A stretch of 64,000 nucleotides of DNA from Oceanisphaera avium (GTDB lineage Bacteria; Pseudomonadota; Gammaproteobacteria; Enterobacterales; Aeromonadaceae): NCBI RefSeq assembly GCF_002157875.1, contig NZ_CP021376.1:2054501-2118500 (forward strand), given 5' to 3'. The notes below the pieces were generated by a model, which worked only from the letters and a program-made list of their open reading frames with translations, was not told where the DNA came from and made no database searches. The translations under genes and the position numbers were made by a program. How positions within the stretch are numbered: position 1 is the stretch's first letter; the number at the start of each line of letters is the position of its first letter. Shown here piece after piece: positions 23,807-59,732 of the stretch.

Positions 23807-26800
23807 TTGACTAAGCAAGAGAACATTGTCCGTTATTGGCATGCCATTGAGTTACTGCAGCCGCAATCCGCCCCCAAGTTGAAGAAGCGCAGCAGCCCCT
23901 ACGGTGCGTTCATTCACGACACACCTATTGGGCAAACTATCCCGCCATGGTCGGCAGCCAGTATTGTTTCAAGGCAGCATTTGCCCAAGCGGCGCGTCTG
24001 GAGCCACACGCTCTTTGCCCATATCTATGACAGTCGGCGTGTTGCTGAACAGCTCAAGGAGGTTTATGGCGCTGACCAGGGCTATCGAGAACCGCAGTAT
24101 CGAGAATCAGCACTTTTCGCTGCGAAATTCACCATGGCGGGCCAGTTGGTCGATGACAGTTTCGTTCTATCCAGTGAGGCATGGTTTCTGGGGCGTGTGT
24201 TGGCGGGGCAGGATTGGACCTGTGGTTTCGAGGATGATCAAAGGGCTATCGGCGATAAGGCAAAGGTGCTGTTCGAGGGGCAGGTATCCGGCGACGCGCT
24301 GCGTGAGCTGACCCGCTGGATTCTCCAATACCTCGGCCTAGCGGGTTTCTTTGGCGACACTGATGGCCAGGTATTTCGTTTCCGCTCTCAGCCCGTCAAT
24401 CCCAATAAGCCTGAATCGGAAGACGACCCGCTCAATAGCTTCCTGCTCGACGATCTTGCTGCCGTCGCCAACAGCATCGGTAACGACCGGAAAAGCGAAC
24501 CGCTGGATCACTATCTACGCCAACACGATACTCGTCATCGTCTGCATGTAGACGATGACGGCGCATCGCTGTCGCTGATCGATCGCCTGATGCCCGACGC
24601 CTATGCTATGAGCTGCTGGCCTTCGGAGCGGCATTTGGGACTGGTACATTCCCAACAACTAGCCGTCAATACGATCCTAGCCACACTTGGCAATGCCCAA
24701 GGGCTGTTAGGTATCAACGGCCCCCCTGGCACAGGCAAAACGACACTGCTGCGCGACTTGATTGCCGCCATTGTGACCGGCCGGGCAGATGCGCTCTCCA
24801 AGCTACGCCGCGCCTCCGATGGGTTCGTCAGTAACGGGCGCGAAGCGGCCAACGACGGCGGCAAGCAACAGGCTTGCTTCAAACTCAATCCAGCACTGTA
24901 TGGTTTCGAGATCGTCGTGGCGTCGTCCAATAATGGCGCTGTGGAAAACGTCACGCTCGAATTACCCCAGCGCGACAAGATCGACGAGAGCTGGCTGCCC
25001 GAGGCGGAGTATTTTGCCGAGCTGGGCGAACTGGTGAGTGGGAAACCTGCGTGGGGATTGATTTCAGGTGCGTTGGGCAGCAAGGCGAGGCGAACCAAGT
25101 TCGTGGAGCGCTACTTCTATGGTCAGCGCCCGTTCGGCAGCGACAACAAGGCGGACTCAGAAGCCGAAGATGAAGCTGAGTTAGACGATGAATTTGGCGA
25201 CACTTTGAACGTCATGTTTTCTACGCCCTCCACGGAGGAAGAAAATCCTGGTACAAACGAAGACCACGCAGGCGCACCGGCAGAACAGGAAGATGGACCG
25301 AAAGGCTTTCTCGGATGGCTCAATGCATGCGCAGAGGTCAACAAGGCACGCTCTCCGGAACAACGCCAAGATTTGTGGCAGCAAGCCATCGCCGAGTACG
25401 AGGCCGCCAAAACAGAGGTGCGCAAGGCGCATGCCGCTACCAATCGCATCCGCGAGCTGATCCAAGCCCGCTGCAAGACAATAAAGCAGGTCGAGGATCA
25501 ATCTGAAGCGCTACGCGCTCTCGAAAAGAAGCTAGAAGATGCGGTCAATCAACTCTATCGCCTGGATGCCGAAGAGAGCCGCCCTGCCAGCCTGACGCTC
25601 AAGCACTGCTTGGATGCACTTGAAGAACATCAAGCGCGCAAGCCGGGATTTTGGGCAAAAATTTTCAGTTTATGGGGTGTGCAGCGAGACTGGGATGCCA
25701 AGCGGAAACGGCTCGAAGGCCAGCACGACTTGGCAAAAGCCGACTTCAGCCGGATAGTACGCCTCACCAAGCAGTTGGATGCCTCGCGGGAGAGTCTAGA
25801 AAAGCAGACCGCCAATACTCGACGTGAGCTTCAGTGCTTGCGTGATCAATTCCAAGCGCACACTCAAGATGCTATCAACGTGGCAAGGGACGGCCAAGCC
25901 GATCACCTGCTTGCCTGGCTACAAAATGGCGCTATCGGTCGCGGCGATGCCATCGAACTAGCCGAGCCTTGGTGTATTGATGGCTGGCGCCAAGCTCGCG
26001 CTCGTGTCTTCATTCAGGCACTCAAACTTCATCGTGTGTTCTTTGAGTTGGAAGCATCCCGAATGCGCTCCAATCTGTTCCTCATCAATGGAATGTTGAC
26101 AGGCACCCGCTACCAAGGCTTTTCGCGTGACGCCATTCGTTCGGCCTGGGCGTCGCTGTTCATGGTCGTGCCGGTATTAAGTAGCACCTTCGCATCGTTT
26201 GCGCGCTCATTCGGCTCGTTGGGGGCCGGCGAGATTGGTTGGCTGCTGGTGGACGAGGCAGGCCAGGCCGCACCCCAGGCAGCGGTCGGCGCATTATGGC
26301 GCTCCCGGCGTGCATTGATGGTGGGCGATCCTCTGCAACTCAAGCCGATCGTCACCGTCTCCGACGCCGTGCTCGAACACATGCGCACGCGCTACCAGGT
26401 CGATACCCATTGGCTCCCCAATCGACAATCCGCACAGACGCTCGCCGATGAAGCCACCAGTTGGGGACGCATGGCGGGACCTACTGACGGCAAGACCTGG
26501 GTAGGTTTGCCTCTGGTCGTGCACCGCCGCTGCGACAAACCTATGCACGCTCTGGCTAACCGCATTGCCTATGACGGAGCAATGGTGTATGGAACGCTTG
26601 CACCGCGGCATGATAAAGAAACGCCAGCCAGTCTCCCGACAGGATGGATTCAAGCCAGCGGGAAGTCACAAGGCAACTGGGTACCTGCTGATGGCAAAGC
26701 TCTTCAGGAACTGCTTGCACTACTGTATCAGGATGGCGTGGAGGCTAAAGATATTTCGGTCATCACGCCCTTTAAAGCCGTCCAAGAAAATCTCAAGCGC

Positions 26801-27091
26801 ATGCTCCGTGACAAGATGGTGTCTGGCACGATCCATACCATGCAGGGTAAGGAAGCATCCATCGTCATCATGGTGCTGGGTGGCAATACTGAGGGCTCAG
26901 GAGCCCGTAACTGGGCGGTCTCGGAGCCGAATCTCTTGAACGTGGCGGCAACACGAGCCAAACGGCGCTTCTACGTGATTGGTGATAGAGACGATTGGAA
27001 GCACAGAGCGTTGTTCTGTGACGTCATGGACTTGCTGCCATTGCAGACCATTCCTGTGCGAGAACAGGAAAAAGTGCTATTCACTCGATAG
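23807..27091 (+). CDS. Superfamily 1 (UPF1/DNA2-like) helicase, island-borne
   Basis: This is a 1094-residue ATP-dependent helicase. Walker A is INGPPGTGKTTLLRDL near residue 305; motif Ia is VVASSNNGAVENV; Walker B and motif III lie near residues 810-845 (WLLVDEAGQAAPQA, MVGDPLQLKPIV); motif IV is VITPFKAVQENL; motif V is GTIHTMQGKEASIVI and motif VI VAATRAKRRFYVIGD near 1045. Residues ~515-700 are charged and probably coiled coil, splitting the two RecA folds. No nuclease domain is seen. The start is TTG 23807 with AAGGGAAG just upstream; no ATG alternative fits. Base composition is clearly GC-richer than both the host and the AT-rich part of the island. Lone helicases of this type occur in mobile islands and could serve defence or element maintenance; this is not proven. 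Confidence 0.85.
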   Translation: MTKQENIVRYWHAIELLQPQSAPKLKKRSSPYGAFIHDTPIGQTIPPWSAASIVSRQHLPKRRVWSHTLFAHIYDSRRVAEQLKEVYGADQGYREPQYRESALFAAKFTMAGQLVDDSFVLSSEAWFLGRVLAGQDWTCGFEDDQRAIGDKAKVLFEGQVSGDALRELTRWILQYLGLAGFFGDTDGQVFRFRSQPVNPNKPESEDDPLNSFLLDDLAAVANSIGNDRKSEPLDHYLRQHDTRHRLHVDDDGASLSLIDRLMPDAYAMSCWPSERHLGLVHSQQLAVNTILATLGNAQGLLGINGPPGTGKTTLLRDLIAAIVTGRADALSKLRRASDGFVSNGREAANDGGKQQACFKLNPALYGFEIVVASSNNGAVENVTLELPQRDKIDESWLPEAEYFAELGELVSGKPAWGLISGALGSKARRTKFVERYFYGQRPFGSDNKADSEAEDEAELDDEFGDTLNVMFSTPSTEEENPGTNEDHAGAPAEQEDGPKGFLGWLNACAEVNKARSPEQRQDLWQQAIAEYEAAKTEVRKAHAATNRIRELIQARCKTIKQVEDQSEALRALEKKLEDAVNQLYRLDAEESRPASLTLKHCLDALEEHQARKPGFWAKIFSLWGVQRDWDAKRKRLEGQHDLAKADFSRIVRLTKQLDASRESLEKQTANTRRELQCLRDQFQAHTQDAINVARDGQADHLLAWLQNGAIGRGDAIELAEPWCIDGWRQARARVFIQALKLHRVFFELEASRMRSNLFLINGMLTGTRYQGFSRDAIRSAWASLFMVVPVLSSTFASFARSFGSLGAGEIGWLLVDEAGQAAPQAAVGALWRSRRALMVGDPLQLKPIVTVSDAVLEHMRTRYQVDTHWLPNRQSAQTLADEATSWGRMAGPTDGKTWVGLPLVVHRRCDKPMHALANRIAYDGAMVYGTLAPRHDKETPASLPTGWIQASGKSQGNWVPADGKALQELLALLYQDGVEAKDISVITPFKAVQENLKRMLRDKMVSGTIHTMQGKEASIVIMVLGGNTEGSGARNWAVSEPNLLNVAATRAKRRFYVIGDRDDWKHRALFCDVMDLLPLQTIPVREQEKVLFTR

Positions 27092-27561: not shown

Positions 27562-28555
27562 GTGGCTTACTTGATCAAATCAGACGATGTACATATAGGT
27601 GGTGAAATCATCACCGAAACAGACCCTATAGAGTTTCTGAATGGCCGAAATCTAGGGTCATTGCCTACTATTTATGACCAAAACTGGGGATATGTCGCAC
27701 CAGTAAACCACTGGTTCATTCATCTTAAAGCGAACAAACGGCTTGAAAATCTAAGTTCCTACGCAAGAGCGCTTTTGCATTATTGGAATTTCCTAGAATC
27801 AGAAAAGTTAACCTGGGACGTTCTCCCCTTAGCAAAAGGTTTAAAGCCGACATATCGATATAGAAATGACAAACTTCTCAAGAGTGTTAAAGCTGGTGAG
27901 CTCGCATACTCAACTGCCAACACGTATATGACACATGTCGTCCAGTTTTATTTATGGGCAGCACATGAACGTTATTACCACATCAACGAGAAACACAAAC
28001 CCTTCGAAATCGAATTTGTAAGAATACAGAGAAGCGACATGCTGGCTCATATGATGCCTAAATTTCTGGTTCAAACTACAGACTTGCGCATCAGAACGCC
28101 GAGGGATGCAACCAGTAAGAATATTCGGGGGCTAAAGCCCTTAACTCAAATTGCACTCACTCATTTAGCTCTACATTTACGTAATGTGCCTTGCGAATTT
28201 AGGCTGATCTGTTTGCTCGCAGCTCAATCCGGCTTACGTATTCAAGAAGCGTCAGGATTGACTTTGGCCGCACTAGAACAATCGGTTCAACGCTCAGGTT
28301 CTATAACTCATTTCGAGCTAACAATAGGACCAAGTAATGGTGTACCTACAAAATACAATAAAACTCGAACTATTGAGATAACAAGCCGCCTTTTATCAGA
28401 TTTGAAAACTTATGCCATTAGTGAGCGACGAATGTGCCGACTTGACAAACTTCTTAGCAGAATTGAGTTACACAAAGGCATCAATGACATAAAAAAATCC
28501 CACTCTGTTCATGTCTCAAAGGAAAAACTCGACGCCCTGACCACAGCCCAGCGAT

Positions 28556-28560
<5 letters not shown>
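27562..28560 (+). pseudogene. Tyrosine recombinase (integrase), truncated by IS
   Basis: This frame has about 331 native residues followed by a stop created by the IS end. It starts at GTG 27562. The N-terminal SAM-like/core-binding region (LENLSSYARALLHYWNFLE) and the first half of the catalytic domain are present: the first catalytic Arg is in AQSGLRIQEASGLTL and the Lys region in TKYNKTRTIEITSRLL. The His-x-x-Arg box and the nucleophilic Tyr are absent, because the IS3-family element begins at 28556. Sequence right of the IS does not continue the catalytic domain, so the 3' end was lost. Strongly AT-rich. It marks the low-GC part of the island as a former integrative element and should be inactive. 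Confidence 0.8.
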
Positions 28561-29816
<1,256 letters not shown>

Positions 29817-30208: not shown

Positions 30209-30239
30209 ATCCTATACTAATTCCAAGGTGAGGAACAGT

Positions 30240-31817
30240 TTGAGCTTAAATAATGCGCATGAAGGATATGATTACCAAGATCTGATATCTAGCTATTTCA
30301 TACTAGAAGAGATACTCAACGGCAATCGAGAAAGCATATTCTCTATAGACAAGAAGCATACGAAAGGTGATACCCCGGATAGATTCGATGACTTAGTAAT
30401 AACTAACGGGGATAAAATACAACGTAAGCAAATAAAATATAGTAATGAACAGACATCTGTCAGGCTAACCAAAGATTACCTTTCTGCCGATAGCCACTAT
30501 AAGATAGCGTTACATAAGCTATATGAATCATGGAAAGCTCTTAACACTACTCATTCTGAATTTAGGTTATGTTTAGCTTGGGATGAGCCTGCTGAAGAAA
30601 ACCTTCTAAAGGTATTAAACCTTCAGCCTTCAAATCTATCGTCGTTCGACTCATTTTCAACTAAAGTCTTTAAAATTGACATAAACAAACTTTGGGAAAT
30701 TGAACCTGAGAATTTCAACCGTTGGGATAGCCTAAAACAATATGTAAAAGAAAATAATATTGATAGAGATGAGTTCCAAACCTTCTGTGAATGCCTCTTA
30801 ATTGAAGTTAGCCTTCCAAAAGCCAGTTTACAATTTAACTCCCCTAATGAACTAGAAGAAATTTTAATCTCGCAAGCCGCGCGACTAGGGGTTGGGCAAT
30901 ATCCAAACGATGATGTTAACATCATTGATTTTTTAGTAAGACTTGTTAAACAGGTTGGAAATTATAGAACGAGTTCTGCTGTTGTAACAACTTCAGATGT
31001 ATTAAAAGATCTACGCATTAAAACTGATTTTGGAGAACTTCAGCAAAAGTTTGAAATCGATCAGAGTAAAAACGTTAAGTCAGATTGTAAATATAGTTCA
31101 TTCTATAATTTTGCTGTGAGTAGCAAGAAAGTAATATTGTCAGGTGAGCCAGGATCTGGTAAGTCATGGTTTCTAACCAATTTAATAGATTATTTAGAAC
31201 GTAATAAAACAACTGTTCTTCGCCATTATTGCTTCACAAGTACTGAAGATGAATTTATAGAGAAAAGAGTCAGTTCTAACACATTTTTTGGAAATATAAT
31301 AAGTGGTATAGAAAAAGCATTTCCAATGCTCACTAAAGTAAAAAATCAGATTTTTGCGGCTAACCTAGATGAATTAAACCTGCTTCTGCAAAATATAGAA
31401 GAGCCGCTAGTAATAATAGTTGATGGCTTAGACCATATTAATAGGGTTTTAAGTTCATCTATTAGCTTATCTAAAGAAAAAACCCAAATCCTAGAAAATA
31501 TATCTCAGATAAACACTCCTGATAACGTAACAATAATATTAGGTTCTCAGCCAGTTGATGAGTTAAATTTCCTTAAAAATGATTTCAGTTATAGAGAACA
31601 CCAATTGCCAGCCTGGAATATTCAGGATACTAAAGAGTTGGTAATAAAACATGGAATAACACAAGTAGATTGCAATGATGAAGATCTCATCACGTTAATT
31701 CATGAAAAGAGTGAGGGCAATCCACTTTATTTAACTTATATATTGTTAACACTAGAAAATAGCAAAGTAGTAAGTAATGATCTCATACATTCCCTCCCCC
31801 TTATGATTTCAATCTAA
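30240..31817 (+). CDS. Nuclease-STAND NTPase, N-terminal part (split by frameshift)
   Basis: About 525 residues. The start is uncertain: TTG 30240 has AGGTGA at 30226-30231 with good spacing, while an in-frame GTG at 30228 has none. Residues ~10-75 show a PD-(D/E)xK-type restriction fold like Cap4/DUF4297 (EGYDYQDLISSYFILEEIL, then DRFDDLVI and the QxK core IQRKQIKYS). A STAND-type P-loop NTPase follows: Walker A VILSGEPGSGKSWFL near residue 300, Walker B LVIIVDGLDHINRV near 390, sensor VTIILGSQP, and the STAND-specific GNPLYLTYIL. The frame ends at TAA 31815-31817; the protein continues one frame away, rejoined by adding one C to the run 31796-31800. AT-rich, unlike host genes. The architecture matches Avs-like antiviral NTPases. 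Confidence 0.75.
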   Translation: MSLNNAHEGYDYQDLISSYFILEEILNGNRESIFSIDKKHTKGDTPDRFDDLVITNGDKIQRKQIKYSNEQTSVRLTKDYLSADSHYKIALHKLYESWKALNTTHSEFRLCLAWDEPAEENLLKVLNLQPSNLSSFDSFSTKVFKIDINKLWEIEPENFNRWDSLKQYVKENNIDRDEFQTFCECLLIEVSLPKASLQFNSPNELEEILISQAARLGVGQYPNDDVNIIDFLVRLVKQVGNYRTSSAVVTTSDVLKDLRIKTDFGELQQKFEIDQSKNVKSDCKYSSFYNFAVSSKKVILSGEPGSGKSWFLTNLIDYLERNKTTVLRHYCFTSTEDEFIEKRVSSNTFFGNIISGIEKAFPMLTKVKNQIFAANLDELNLLLQNIEEPLVIIVDGLDHINRVLSSSISLSKEKTQILENISQINTPDNVTIILGSQPVDELNFLKNDFSYREHQLPAWNIQDTKELVIKHGITQVDCNDEDLITLIHEKSEGNPLYLTYILLTLENSKVVSNDLIHSLPLMISI

Positions 31818-34800
31818 AGAGATACTACGAATACTTAACAAATAAAATTGAAAATAACACAACAGCGGAGATCTTATCTTGCCTCGACTTTTCTGTAACC
31901 AGAAAAGAGCTTCAAGAGATAATTCCGGTGAAGCACCATTTCAATTCTAGTATGAAAGTACTGTCTCCTGTCATTTCTGAAAATACAGCTAGAGGTGGAA
32001 TAAGGCTTTACCATGATAGTTTCAGGCGATTTAACATGGAAAAGTTGGCTGATATCGAAGCTCTAGATACCATGAATGAATTCATTATAAACTGGCTAAA
32101 TCGTGACTGCTTTTTTGAAAGTGACAAATCTTACCGTTATTTATTTAGTTACCTAATGCGGACAAAGAAGTATGAGGATATTAGTAGCTATGCATCAAAC
32201 AAGTTCCTACCAAATAGCTTGTATTATGCTCACCCAGAAGCATTGATTCGAAGAAACTACGAAAGCTTTCTAAGCGTCGCTAAAAAAACACAAAACTGGT
32301 CTCTATTCATTTATGCCAGTGAACTGAATAGGGCTATTAATACAACTAGTTCAGAAGAGCATCACAGTCAGTTTTTAGATAATTTTGAACTATATTTTGA
32401 GGCTATTTGTTTGATCTATGGAGTAGAAAAAGCAAATGCACTTTTATATTTTAATGGCGAAAAGAACCATAGCGATTCTGTTACAGCGCAAGCATTTAGA
32501 ATATTAGAAAAGCAGGGCTATTCTCCCAAATGGGAGGATGTAAATGGGCTATTTTTAGGGAAAGTAAAGCAAGATGACTTCAAATACTACATTAGCTTTT
32601 TAAACCAAAAGAATGATGATTTTCTAGCGTTTCTAAAAAAAGTCATATATCACGAAGATAAAACCTATCTTAGAATTTTTTTAGATGAGATATTCAGACT
32701 AAAAGGCAGTGACTTTTTAATTTATCTACATAGCAAACTTACCGACATTGAAAAAGAGTCAACGGGACTTATCATCAATAACCTTTTCGAAAGAGAGAGT
32801 TGTTCTGCAAGAATACCAATAAGGGTAGAGACTAATGTGACTCTGGAGCTCTTATCTTTACCACTCATCAGCGAAAATGTAGATAACGACGAACTAGATA
32901 GGTTTTGTAGCCAATTAGAATTGTATTCAGATAACGATTTAAATAGTTTGATCTGCTTCGAAAAAACCATTACTTCTGATTTCATCGTTCACAGTTGGAT
33001 AAAGTTTTTTATACGGAATCTTATCATAGGCAAGACCTGCAATGGCTCCTCATTAGAAGAAGGCATAATTCAAAGCTTCGCGTTATTAGCAGATGACATG
33101 ATTAACTTTCCTAGAGCTAGGTATTCTAGTTTTCTCTTTGATAACCGAGGCTTGATTGATAGAAGCTTTGAGCAAGCATTGGTGCATATCAACTCACAAT
33201 TGGCATGGAAGACGATATTTGATATCAGAAGAAAAATTGTATTTCCTATTCTCCCAACGATAGAGAATCGATTCCTCAATGAAAATAATATCAACTTCGT
33301 AATAAAGGCTTATGATAGCTTCGATGAAGAAGACTGTGATTACTATGAACACTCACAGCATTCATTCAAAAAAGCAATTTACTATGCAAAAGTAGGAGAT
33401 ATAGAAAAAGCCAAGTTAGAGTTGAAAAAAGCGATTCACTTAACGACTAGTTACACTTCTCGAAAAGACAGAAATTTAGCTGAAGTAATTGAGCCACTCC
33501 CTTCGATAAACAACATAAATCCTAGTTTTGCTAAAGAATACACTAAAAAGCTTAAATACCTCACTGATGCGGTGATGAAACATACTGAAGATGGCAAAGA
33601 TACCAGATGGTTAACTATAGAATGGTTTGAAGTATTCATAAAAATTGATTTCGAACAAGCTACGAAATATTTAATCAATCAAATGTTGACCAATGGATAT
33701 TTTTGGAAATTAGATTTTATGTTTGTGGATCTATTGCAACATAGCGATAACGTCGAGCCCAGTATTTTAAATTTTCTCTATAAATTATCTCCAACAAACA
33801 TTAAAGATACATATCTCAATGATTTTCTGGAGGTAATTGAGCGTTTAGAAAAGAACGACGATAAGTTAGCCAAGGCATCTATGGTTAATCTATCCGCAAG
33901 AGACTGGAATGATTCTTATGACACATTGAGTCAAAAAACTGTTCACAAATACAATAATATTGCTCACAAATTAGGACTTAACTTACATTTAGAGGAAAGT
34001 AAAGAAAAAAGCACTGGAGTTCACCGCTCATTTGGCAATGAAAAGTTATCCATAAAACTGACTACGAAGTTATGTAAAGAAGATAGCTTAAGGAGCAAAT
34101 TGACACCGGACCTTGTCGATTATTTAGTTTCTCAAGAAGTCTTGGGGAACGACAATCTCAATTACTTATATTTCTTCTTTAAAGAGGAAAACAATACAGA
34201 ATTGGCAAATGAAATACTTCTGCCACTTATCCGAAAAAGATTCCCAAGAGGACAAGAATATTTTACAAATCTGCGGATGTTGATTCAAGGAATCACCATC
34301 TCAGATAGAGATAAAGTTTTTCTATTGGTCAACAATTTCGTCTACTCAAAAGACGGGTGGTTTTCTAGTTTTGTCGACAGGGAATCATTACTCCAAGCTG
34401 TTATGATTGATAGAGATATTACGCAAAACTGTTTAGCATCAGCTCTATATACTTTTTCCAAAAACATGGATTATTCATCTAAGACAACGGCTAACCTAAT
34501 TATTGCGTTCGAATACGTGGGTTTTGATGAACAGACTATTTTATCAATGTATGAAACAGGTTTTGATTTCATCAAAAGTAGACTACCAGACGAAAATGAA
34601 TTTGAATGGGAAAGTTTAAATTACATTGAAATATCTGAAATGAATGATGATGAAAGAGCAATTACATTACTCCTTAGTAAAGCAAACAACCTAGATTCAT
34701 TAGTTCAACGAGAGATTATTTGTGCGCTAAGTTACTTGGTGAAGAATTACACTAACCTTTTAATTAAACCTCTTAATTGGTTTTTCAATAACTTTCATCT

Positions 34801-34972
34801 GTTCCATCACTCAACTATCGCTTCAATCCTTGAGCTTATATCGATTGAAATCGAGCAGCTTAAACCATTATTGCTAGAGATAAAGCCATCTATTGGAAAA
34901 CTCATAGGGGTGCAAAATTTGTACATACATAATGTAGTCGAGAGTATTTTTTGCGAGCTAAGTAATGAATAG
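31802..34972 (+). CDS. Nuclease-STAND NTPase, C-terminal helical sensor part
   Basis: This is the continuation of the gene starting at 30240. The frame is open from 31802 (YDFNLKRYYEYLTNKIEN...) and, if used alone, could only start at GTG 31928 with no ribosome binding site, so independent expression is unlikely. It adds about 1,055 residues. The first ~100 look like the winged-helix end of a STAND module (ARGGIRLYHDSFRRFNM). The rest is long alpha-helical repeat sequence resembling TPR/HEAT-type solenoids (for example AIYYAKVGDIEKAKLELKKA). In Avs proteins this region recognises a viral protein and triggers oligomerisation. Reconstructed total is about 1,580 residues. The stop overlaps the next gene by 8 bases. 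Confidence 0.7.
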   Translation, partial: YDFNLKRYYEYLTNKIENNTTAEILSCLDFSVTRKELQEIIPVKHHFNSSMKVLSPVISENTARGGIRLYHDSFRRFNMEKLADIEALDTMNEFIINWLNRDCFFESDKSYRYLFSYLMRTKKYEDISSYASNKFLPNSLYYAHPEALIRRNYESFLSVAKKTQNWSLFIYASELNRAINTTSSEEHHSQFLDNFELYFEAICLIYGVEKANALLYFNGEKNHSDSVTAQAFRILEKQGYSPKWEDVNGLFLGKVKQDDFKYYISFLNQKNDDFLAFLKKVIYHEDKTYLRIFLDEIFRLKGSDFLIYLHSKLTDIEKESTGLIINNLFERESCSARIPIRVETNVTLELLSLPLISENVDNDELDRFCSQLELYSDNDLNSLICFEKTITSDFIVHSWIKFFIRNLIIGKTCNGSSLEEGIIQSFALLADDMINFPRARYSSFLFDNRGLIDRSFEQALVHINSQLAWKTIFDIRRKIVFPILPTIENRFLNENNINFVIKAYDSFDEEDCDYYEHSQHSFKKAIYYAKVGDIEKAKLELKKAIHLTTSYTSRKDRNLAEVIEPLPSINNINPSFAKEYTKKLKYLTDAVMKHTEDGKDTRWLTIEWFEVFIKIDFEQATKYLINQMLTNGYFWKLDFMFVDLLQHSDNVEPSILNFLYKLSPTNIKDTYLNDFLEVIERLEKNDDKLAKASMVNLSARDWNDSYDTLSQKTVHKYNNIAHKLGLNLHLEESKEKSTGVHRSFGNEKLSIKLTTKLCKEDSLRSKLTPDLVDYLVSQEVLGNDNLNYLYFFFKEENNTELANEILLPLIRKRFPRGQEYFTNLRMLIQGITISDRDKVFLLVNNFVYSKDGWFSSFVDRESLLQAVMIDRDITQNCLASALYTFSKNMDYSSKTTANLIIAFEYVGFDEQTILSMYETGFDFIKSRLPDENEFEWESLNYIEISEMNDDERAITLLLSKANNLDSLVQREIICALSYLVKNYTNLLIKPLNWFFNNFHLFHHSTIASILELISIEIEQLKPLLLEIKPSIGKLIGVQNLYIHNVVESIFCELSNE

Positions 34973-35828
34973 CAACATCATAAACTTAATCAACAACTCC
35001 AAATTCATCAGATATTTAGGGGACTTAGGAATTGATAAGAATGACGTAAATAAAGCAATAATGCAGGATTTTAATAAAGATGAATTTGATAACTTTGTTA
35101 ATAGTTCCTGCGGTATGCTTTCTCCGAACACCTATATCTATGATTTAGTTTTTAAGCATGTAAATGAATTTTTATATCAACACTATAGGGAATCGGTCAT
35201 TTCTGAAGGTGACGGAAAAATAGATGTTAAAACAATGATTGCAACATCTAACTCTCTAATTAGTAGACCCAACTTAGTAAAACCGATTGATAAATCAACT
35301 GGATTTAGGGCTCCTGATGAATTAGACGACTTTGTTGTCATTGCTAGATTTGAGCGCCAATTTGAAGTTAAGGATTATGGCCGCAACACTAAAGGCAATC
35401 ACACAATAGTATGTGAAGGTTGTCTACCTATGAAAATTAAAATGAACCCCCTGAAAATTTTTCCGCATACTCAAGATATTTGGAAAGATGAATACTGTTA
35501 CGGAACCCCTGCTATCCAAGGGTTTTGTATTAATGACAATAGTTTAGAGGCTGCGCAAGTTATTTGGATGAATGGTGAACTGCTGAGTATGTTAGGCCTG
35601 ATTCTAGATTGTTATGATAACGGACTTAGAGCCCTAAATGAAAATGGTGAAGCAGTTTTGATATATCGATGCTGGAGAGAAAGTTTAATCGGAAAAGGGG
35701 CTTCCTTTGTTGGCTTAGACTCCAATATTTCAAGGCTAGAAGGTTGTGATTTAATATTAAGAAAAGACTTTTATGGAAAGTTAAAGACCTTTATTCCAAA
35801 TATTGCTTTCTATACACAAATAATCTAG
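34965..35828 (+). CDS. Unknown partner protein of the nuclease-STAND gene
   Basis: This 287-residue protein starts inside the end of the NTPase gene (ATGAATAG, 8-base overlap), so translation is coupled and the two products probably work together. I do not recognise a family. It appears soluble: no signal peptide or membrane segment. The N-terminal ~90 residues are helical and acidic (NDVNKAIMQDFNKDEFDNFV). The rest looks like mixed alpha/beta with several Cys (IVCEGCLPMKI, CYGTPAIQGFCI) and a C-terminal part with conserved-looking WRESLIGKGASFVGLD. Possible roles are a target sensor, an inhibitor holding the nuclease in check, or a second effector. Its last two codons begin the 298-bp repeat. 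Confidence 0.7.
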   Translation: MNSNIINLINNSKFIRYLGDLGIDKNDVNKAIMQDFNKDEFDNFVNSSCGMLSPNTYIYDLVFKHVNEFLYQHYRESVISEGDGKIDVKTMIATSNSLISRPNLVKPIDKSTGFRAPDELDDFVVIARFERQFEVKDYGRNTKGNHTIVCEGCLPMKIKMNPLKIFPHTQDIWKDEYCYGTPAIQGFCINDNSLEAAQVIWMNGELLSMLGLILDCYDNGLRALNENGEAVLIYRCWRESLIGKGASFVGLDSNISRLEGCDLILRKDFYGKLKTFIPNIAFYTQII

Positions 35829-36121
35829 CTAAATGCTCTTCATTAGTAAATTATCTTATTAAGCCGTTCAGGACCAACCCAAAAGCAAATAGTAAGATTT
35901 ATCAAGTTACAGTCGAAAAATTCGTCAAAATATTTGAGGGCATAGTTCAACTAGACTTACGACAAAATGGATGAAAACTCTGGAAAGTGGTATACTCAGG
36001 ATTACTTTTTTAGGAAAAGCAGTGGTGTTCGCCAGCTTTTCTGGAAAAGACTACCAAGCCGCGTTAAATAGACTTTTCCAGATTTATTTCAGAACTCAGT
36101 TGTGTAAGTAAGCCAGGACTA
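35824..36121. repeat. 298-bp direct repeat, left copy
   Basis: This segment is identical over its whole length, as far as I could align it, to 37383-37680 (offset 1559). It begins in the last codons of the partner gene and ends exactly where IS copy 2 begins. It has no ORF of note. It carries a series of TTTT...GGAAAAG motifs: 36005-36019, 36036-36049, and the reverse arm CTTTTCCAGA at 36073-36082, which pairs with TCTGGAAAAG at 36040-36049. It might contain the terminus or attachment region of the integrative element. Confidence 0.85.
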
Positions 36122-37382
<1,261 letters not shown>

Positions 37383-37680
37383 TCTAGCTAAATGCTCTTC
37401 ATTAGTAAATTATCTTATTAAGCCGTTCAGGACCAACCCAAAAGCAAATAGTAAGATTTATCAAGTTACAGTCGAAAAATTCGTCAAAATATTTGAGGGC
37501 ATAGTTCAACTAGACTTACGACAAAATGGATGAAAACTCTGGAAAGTGGTATACTCAGGATTACTTTTTTAGGAAAAGCAGTGGTGTTCGCCAGCTTTTC
37601 TGGAAAAGACTACCAAGCCGCGTTAAATAGACTTTTCCAGATTTATTTCAGAACTCAGTTGTGTAAGTAAGCCAGGACTA
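37383..37680. repeat. 298-bp direct repeat, right copy
   Basis: Duplicate of 35824-36121, directly after IS copy 2. Immediately right of it (from 37681) the sequence becomes host-like, leading into the terminator and lipoprotein gene, so it also marks the right border of the island. Confidence 0.85.
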
Positions 37681-37713
37681 TGCGTTAATGACTATTAACA
37701 TCGAGCACCAATA

Positions 37714-59092: not shown

Positions 59093-59169
<77 letters not shown>

Positions 59170-59227
59170 TAAAACTGTGCTGTCTTTCTAAAATTAACCG
59201 TGAAGTCATCACGGTTAATTTTTTAAT

Positions 59228-59304
<77 letters not shown>

Positions 59305-59394
59305 AAATTTCTTCTTTACCTTAAGGCCTAAGCCTTACTTTTAATCTTATGTATCGTACTCCGATAAAGTACAATTACAAACTTATTGAAGTAG

Positions 59395-59478
59395 TGGTGC
59401 GAAGGGGGGACTTGAACCCCCACACCCGAAGGCACTAACACCTGAAGCTAGCGCGTCTACCAATTCCGCCACCCTCGC
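59395..59478 (-). tRNA. tRNA-Leu(CAG)
   Basis: 84 bases with encoded CCA and the long variable arm of leucine tRNAs (TGCCTTCGGGTG). The anticodon loop TTCAGGT gives CAG. Confidence 0.93.
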
Positions 59479-59512
59479 ACATTTTTACTACTTCCAGGCC
59501 ATAACCTGAAAT

Positions 59513-59589
59513 TGGGGTGACCGACGGGGCTCGAACCCGCGACAACCGGAATCACAATCCGGGACTCTACCAACTGAGCTACGATCACC
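59513..59589 (-). tRNA. tRNA-His(GTG)
   Basis: 77 bases with encoded CCA. It has the extra 5' G (position -1) opposite C73, an identity mark of tRNA-His, and anticodon GTG in loop TTGTGAT. Confidence 0.95.
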
Positions 59590-59655
59590 ATTATTTCTGA
59601 CTAACTTTCTTTTTACTGGGGCTTAGTCTACCAAGCTTTGTCCGAATGTACTAGA

Positions 59656-59732
<77 letters not shown>

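Follow-up and report, generated by a model that had tools for sequence, protein, structure and literature searches.

A two-gene Avs-like nuclease system in Oceanisphaera avium whose partner protein is probably a detached C-terminal receptor domain

We analysed a window of 64,000 nucleotides from Oceanisphaera avium (contig NZ_CP021376.1, positions 2,054,501 to 2,118,500 of the forward strand), in which a large gene, broken by a frameshift in this copy, is followed by a small partner gene on the same strand. The pair likely encodes a split antiviral nuclease related to the Avs proteins, which are STAND (bacterial NLR-like) receptors, and the partner would be the detached C-terminal domain of that receptor. 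This assignment of the partner follows from single-chain homologues that carry the same domain at their C-terminus and from a fold match to the C-terminal end of Avs3; the single-chain form is the decisive evidence.

Reading frames and domains of the large protein

In the window copy, the large gene is listed as two open reading frames (ORFs) on the forward strand, a 5' piece of 529 amino acids (aa; 30228..31817, with 30240 as an alternative start suggested by relatives) and a 3' piece of 1,014 aa (31928..34972), the frame of which is open from 31781. Because in each of five relatives (L002-L006) a single unbroken ORF, 1,578-1,604 aa long, aligns collinearly to both, the two ORFs are, judged from the alignment, pieces of one gene, and the length of about 1,580 codons given in the original prediction was right. 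The frameshift that it described, and the 8-base overlap between the end of the large gene and the start of the partner gene (287 aa, 34965..35828, forward strand), agree with the ORF coordinates. The two pieces were searched separately, with no repair of the frame. At E <= 1e-3 we found 126 homologues for the partner and 256 for the large protein, and the ratio of nonsynonymous to synonymous substitution rates (dN/dS) against three relatives was 0.16-0.24 in all three pieces, so that the locus is more than a product of chance.

The 5' piece is supported as a Cap4/DUF4297-type PD-(D/E)xK nuclease, with predicted nuclease activity, followed by a STAND/NACHT P-loop ATPase. All the motifs named in the original prediction (FDDLVI, QxK in the form QIK, GEPGSGKS, VDGLDH and GNPLYL) are indeed present in the window sequence. 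Residues D54-D55 and Q68-x-K70 (30387..30437), which we take to be the catalytic motif known from the Cap4/DUF4297 family, are retained as D, D, Q and K in 25 of the 25 relatives having the region (26 were aligned, and one row is without the N-terminus). The GKS of the Walker A motif GEPGSGKS (31143..31166) and the D, G and D of the Walker B motif VDGLD (31419..31433) are invariant in all 26. With the exception of that incomplete row and of a few substitutions by near-equivalent residues, the key residues of the large protein are kept throughout this alignment. Pfam NACHT and NPHP3_N scored above cut-off in the 5' piece, and its AlphaFold model (predicted local distance difference test score, pLDDT, 89.4) has fold matches to DUF4297, Cap4 and Avs3, the best match in the PDB being Avs3 (the Avs3a protein SeAvs3, 8dgc). 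Fold matches, profile matches and conserved residues thus uphold the prediction of a Cap4/DUF4297-type nuclease joined to a STAND NTPase of the Avs kind.

The 3' piece comprises the remainder of the STAND region and then a long C-terminal part, which by analogy with Avs proteins probably consists of helical repeats; a TPR-type match to it was weak and below cut-off. A search of solved structures by sequence gave nothing convincing for the large protein. In profile comparisons, the large protein matched Avs1b at 98.0%, Avs3a at 94.5% and Avs2 at 23.3%, which places the central STAND NTPase in the Avs clade as defined by sequence.

The partner protein and its single-chain counterparts

Residues 87-287 of the partner (35223..35825) match a domain at the C-terminus of single-chain homologues, according to hmmsearch and hhalign, and of Avs3, according to structural comparison. 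A plasmid of Pseudanabaena sp. ABRG5-3 encodes a single chain of 2,005 aa that holds both parts in the same order, the large-protein profile spanning residues 1-1658 and the partner profile residues 1791-1996. With the C-terminal 356 residues of this chain as query, we found six further single chains of 1,816-2,040 aa (P0243-P0248), although P0243 is practically identical to the query chain. These homologues contain the whole large protein (hhalign 100%) together with the partner domain in one gene, where the window has two. A partner profile of 121 sequences gave E-values from 8.9e-12 to 3.8e-5 for the seven chains, and a further chain from genome G358 reached only E 0.018 (target set of 8). 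In a profile-profile comparison, the partner matched the C-termini of these seven chains at 97.2% (E 2.9e-11), or at 97.9% with the G358 chain added, whereas fourteen controls (one reversed profile, eight windows of the large protein and five column shuffles) gave at most 0.7%. The best fold match of the partner is again the C-terminal end of Avs3 (residues 1825-2044). In G358, a transposase-like ORF breaks up the single-chain relative (L058, 2668-9955) close to the N-terminus of that protein.

The partner matched no family below E 0.01 in Pfam, PADLOC, NCBIfam or PHROGs, in line with the earlier remark that it belongs to no known family. We recognised no catalytic motif in it, solved structures gave no match by sequence, and BFVD structures gave none at E <= 0.001. 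Among viral sequences, 25 pattern matches in IMG/VR included 0 relatives, and 50,697 phage records had no match. The original prediction had proposed the partner as a possible new component of a defence system; its conserved pairing with the large gene speaks for a component, but its presence as a C-terminal domain in single chains and its fold match to Avs3 speak against a new and unrelated one.

Small downstream genes that overlap those of toxic nucleases often encode regulators, and a partner without recognised catalytic motif or family match could be such a protein, of a regulatory or immunity type, restraining the nuclease and standing outside the sensor. We consider this unlikely, since in the single-chain relatives the partner constitutes the receptor's own C-terminal end, and it is not easy to see how it could act there as an immunity protein in its own right. 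The sensor of STAND receptors, moreover, lies at the C-terminus, according to a published account (PMC12931631).

Conservation of the pair and its place among Avs systems

The original prediction had suggested looking for the partner gene beside the NTPase in other genomes, and the pair is indeed conserved in Gammaproteobacteria, Campylobacterota and, more remotely, an actinomycete. Searching species genomes with the partner returned seven loci, all seven with a relative of the large protein directly upstream; one of them (L007) is cut by a contig end and another (L008, Amycolatopsis) is distant. Fair values for the Amycolatopsis protein are E 1.1e-10 with the C-terminal-domain profile and E 3.3e-7 with the partner profile (15 targets). 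Its match to a joint model was discarded as circular, the protein having been part of that model. With the large protein as query, 6 of 394 same-order genomes matched, the window's among them; an intact adjacent partner is found in three (G348, G420 and G535), the partner is broken into two ORFs in G561, and G358 has the single-chain form. G348 and L007 are probably the same record, and L057 was dropped as a duplicate of L007. On plasmids, the large protein matched 39 records: both of the two with a full-length match have the partner, one is the single-chain Pseudanabaena protein, and 36 are other STAND proteins matched over at most 27% of the query at E up to 1. A search of 100 related genomes found the partner in one, the window's own.

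The junction of the two genes is an 8-base overlap in nine of 13 distinct loci; in the rest it is an overlap of 4 bases or 1 base, or a one-base gap. Distances between partners and between large proteins had rank correlations of 0.71-0.85, highest at residues ~620-1100 of the large protein, and the rate at which the partner diverges equals that of the C-terminal half of the large protein and exceeds that of the nuclease (9 loci, 36 pairs; kinship inflates such figures). A Rhodococcus koreensis plasmid weighs against strict pairing: it contains an unannotated partner-like stretch (L028, 8001-9047), at 41.6% to the Amycolatopsis partner, and no large gene in the stretch. It is either an orphan or a remnant. 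On the Pseudoalteromonas plasmid pMEGA, which has an intact pair, a gene for a type I restriction endonuclease subunit lies close by (L025, 1-2560), as would be expected of a neighbourhood of defence genes.

Among the Avs types tested, Avs1b has the closest STAND ATPase by sequence (PADLOC E 1.4e-6), but it does not share the nuclease domain of the large protein (0.2%). Avs1 consists of three genes, with the MBL (metallo-beta-lactamase)-fold Avs1a, the protease Avs1b and Avs1c, whereas the locus here has two, with insertion sequence (IS) elements as neighbours; the NCBIfam Avs1b model scored 11.6 bits against a cut-off of 1500. The Avs types had been taken for single-gene systems in the original prediction, which does not hold, as Avs1 is annotated with Avs1a and Avs1c and Avs3 with Avs3b.

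Avs3b is encoded downstream of, and overlapping, Avs3a in annotated plasmids. As the partner gene has the same position and overlap, and the best fold match of the large protein is Avs3, the partner might be a counterpart of Avs3b and the pair simply a diverged Avs3. We regard this as quite improbable. Profile comparison of the partner with eight Avs3b proteins reached 0.1%, so that any link between the two would be a remote one, beyond sequence similarity, and the partner's fold match falls in Avs3a rather than in Avs3b. The 11 Avs3a chains examined, moreover, are 2,017-2,211 aa long and keep their own C-terminal domain in the chain, while the large protein has ~1,580 aa and that domain is encoded by a second gene. 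Neither the window pieces nor the proteins of L004, L005 and L008 had an Avs3 family among their PADLOC matches (E <= 1), and there was none among the NCBIfam matches of the window pieces. The partner gave no sequence signal against the C-termini of the 11 Avs3a proteins, and no significant match to those of three Avs2 proteins or to plasmid STAND proteins of 1,907-2,051 aa. Avs3a proteins were taken from PDLC02167, PDLC02162, 02163 and 02165 being Avs2; NF041812, tried as an Avs3a family, proved to be an unrelated one. An Avs5 family search in 61 genomes gave one weak match, below cut-off. The Cap4, HerA-DUF4297 and LmuA nucleases are without a STAND ATPase, unlike the large protein. On these comparisons we class the locus as an Avs-like STAND nuclease of a split type and not as Avs3, with a partner that differs from Avs3b in sequence. 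A literature search at the level of titles and abstract beginnings found no description of the pair, which is weak evidence of novelty.

Three further plasmid loci (L029, 5863-11789; L031, 5338-11201; L034, 4709-10572) each encode a STAND nuclease of ~1,473-1,494 aa followed by a protein of 458-480 aa, two of the latter being annotated as transporter permease. These proteins had no significant sequence match to the partner, and the group is possibly an independent split form.

Proposed working, state of the window copy and neighbouring genes

Avs1-Avs4 are described as sensing the terminase, the portal or another phage protein (PMC12931631), and SeAvs3 as forming tetramers once its sensor domain has bound a viral protein, which brings the nuclease domains together and switches on DNA cutting (PMC11291478). 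By homology, the split system should work in the same way, its C-terminal sensing end being made complete by the partner. The partner, translated from the overlapping start, would dock back onto the large protein, and a phage protein, perhaps one involved in packaging (terminase or portal, for instance) as for Avs1-4, would bind the C-terminal part together with the partner. The ATPase would then switch and the complex oligomerise, so that nuclease domains could pair and cleave DNA; the outcome would be death of the infected cell or clearance of the phage. We infer that the partner contacts the phage protein, though its role may rather be to lock or brace the complex. A more tentative idea is that the partner is a separable and exchangeable recognition subunit, one nuclease-ATPase chassis serving several small sensors that direct it; the loci of ~1,480-aa STAND nucleases with ~460-480-aa proteins (L029, L031, L034) may follow the same principle. 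If the split-receptor reading is true, the sensing end of an Avs-type protein is physically separable from its switch and nuclease, and the role of each part can be tested by omitting one gene. It would also name a function for a 126-member family annotated only as 'hypothetical protein', and add a defence system beyond the PADLOC 2023 and NCBIfam 2026 models.

These considerations concern the family, as the break in the large gene probably leaves the window copy inactive. The break lies at 31781..31817 (forward strand), a stretch of 37 bases in which both frames are open, the second being open from 31781 and the first running to its stop at 31817. Since dN/dS is low in all three pieces, the break is recent or an artefact. 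Two IS3-type elements flank the pair, one upstream (28556..29816, forward strand, with two transposase-like ORFs; family assigned by eye) and one downstream (36122..37382, same orientation), with 1 mismatch between them when 100-base blocks from 28600 to 29799 were compared. A 301-bp segment occurs identically on both sides of the downstream element (35823-36123 and 37382-37682); its first six bases are the end of the partner gene, and its length far exceeds that of an ordinary target duplication.

The frame break, the near-identical IS copies with the duplication on the 3' side, the G+C content of about 0.33-0.35 in the pair's stretch versus roughly 0.45-0.50 nearby, and the presence of the partner in a single one of the related genomes all fit a broken, IS-flanked import that persists as debris without present function. 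For this genome, we find that account somewhat favoured, and it is compatible with a split receptor in the family at large. The low dN/dS, however, allows for a recent break at most, and a sequencing error or a programmed shift may be the source of it. A programmed or switchable break, by ribosomal frameshifting or phase variation, might control a dangerous protein, and the break does sit in a short C-rich run within the stretch open in both frames; but the frame of the relatives is unbroken and we saw no repeat tract as long as those that usually underlie phase variation, which makes this very improbable.

Upstream of the pair, positions 27562-28560 encode an integrase-like protein (PHROG integrase, E 6.1e-8), which was probably cut by the upstream IS copy because its frame ends inside the left end of that element. 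A 1,094-aa superfamily 1 helicase at 23807-27091, matching PADLOC MkoC (Mokosh) over residues 278-1062 at E 5.6e-67, is a possible second defence gene. Lastly, five clustered tRNA genes (Pro, Pro, Leu, His, Arg) lie at 59093-59732.
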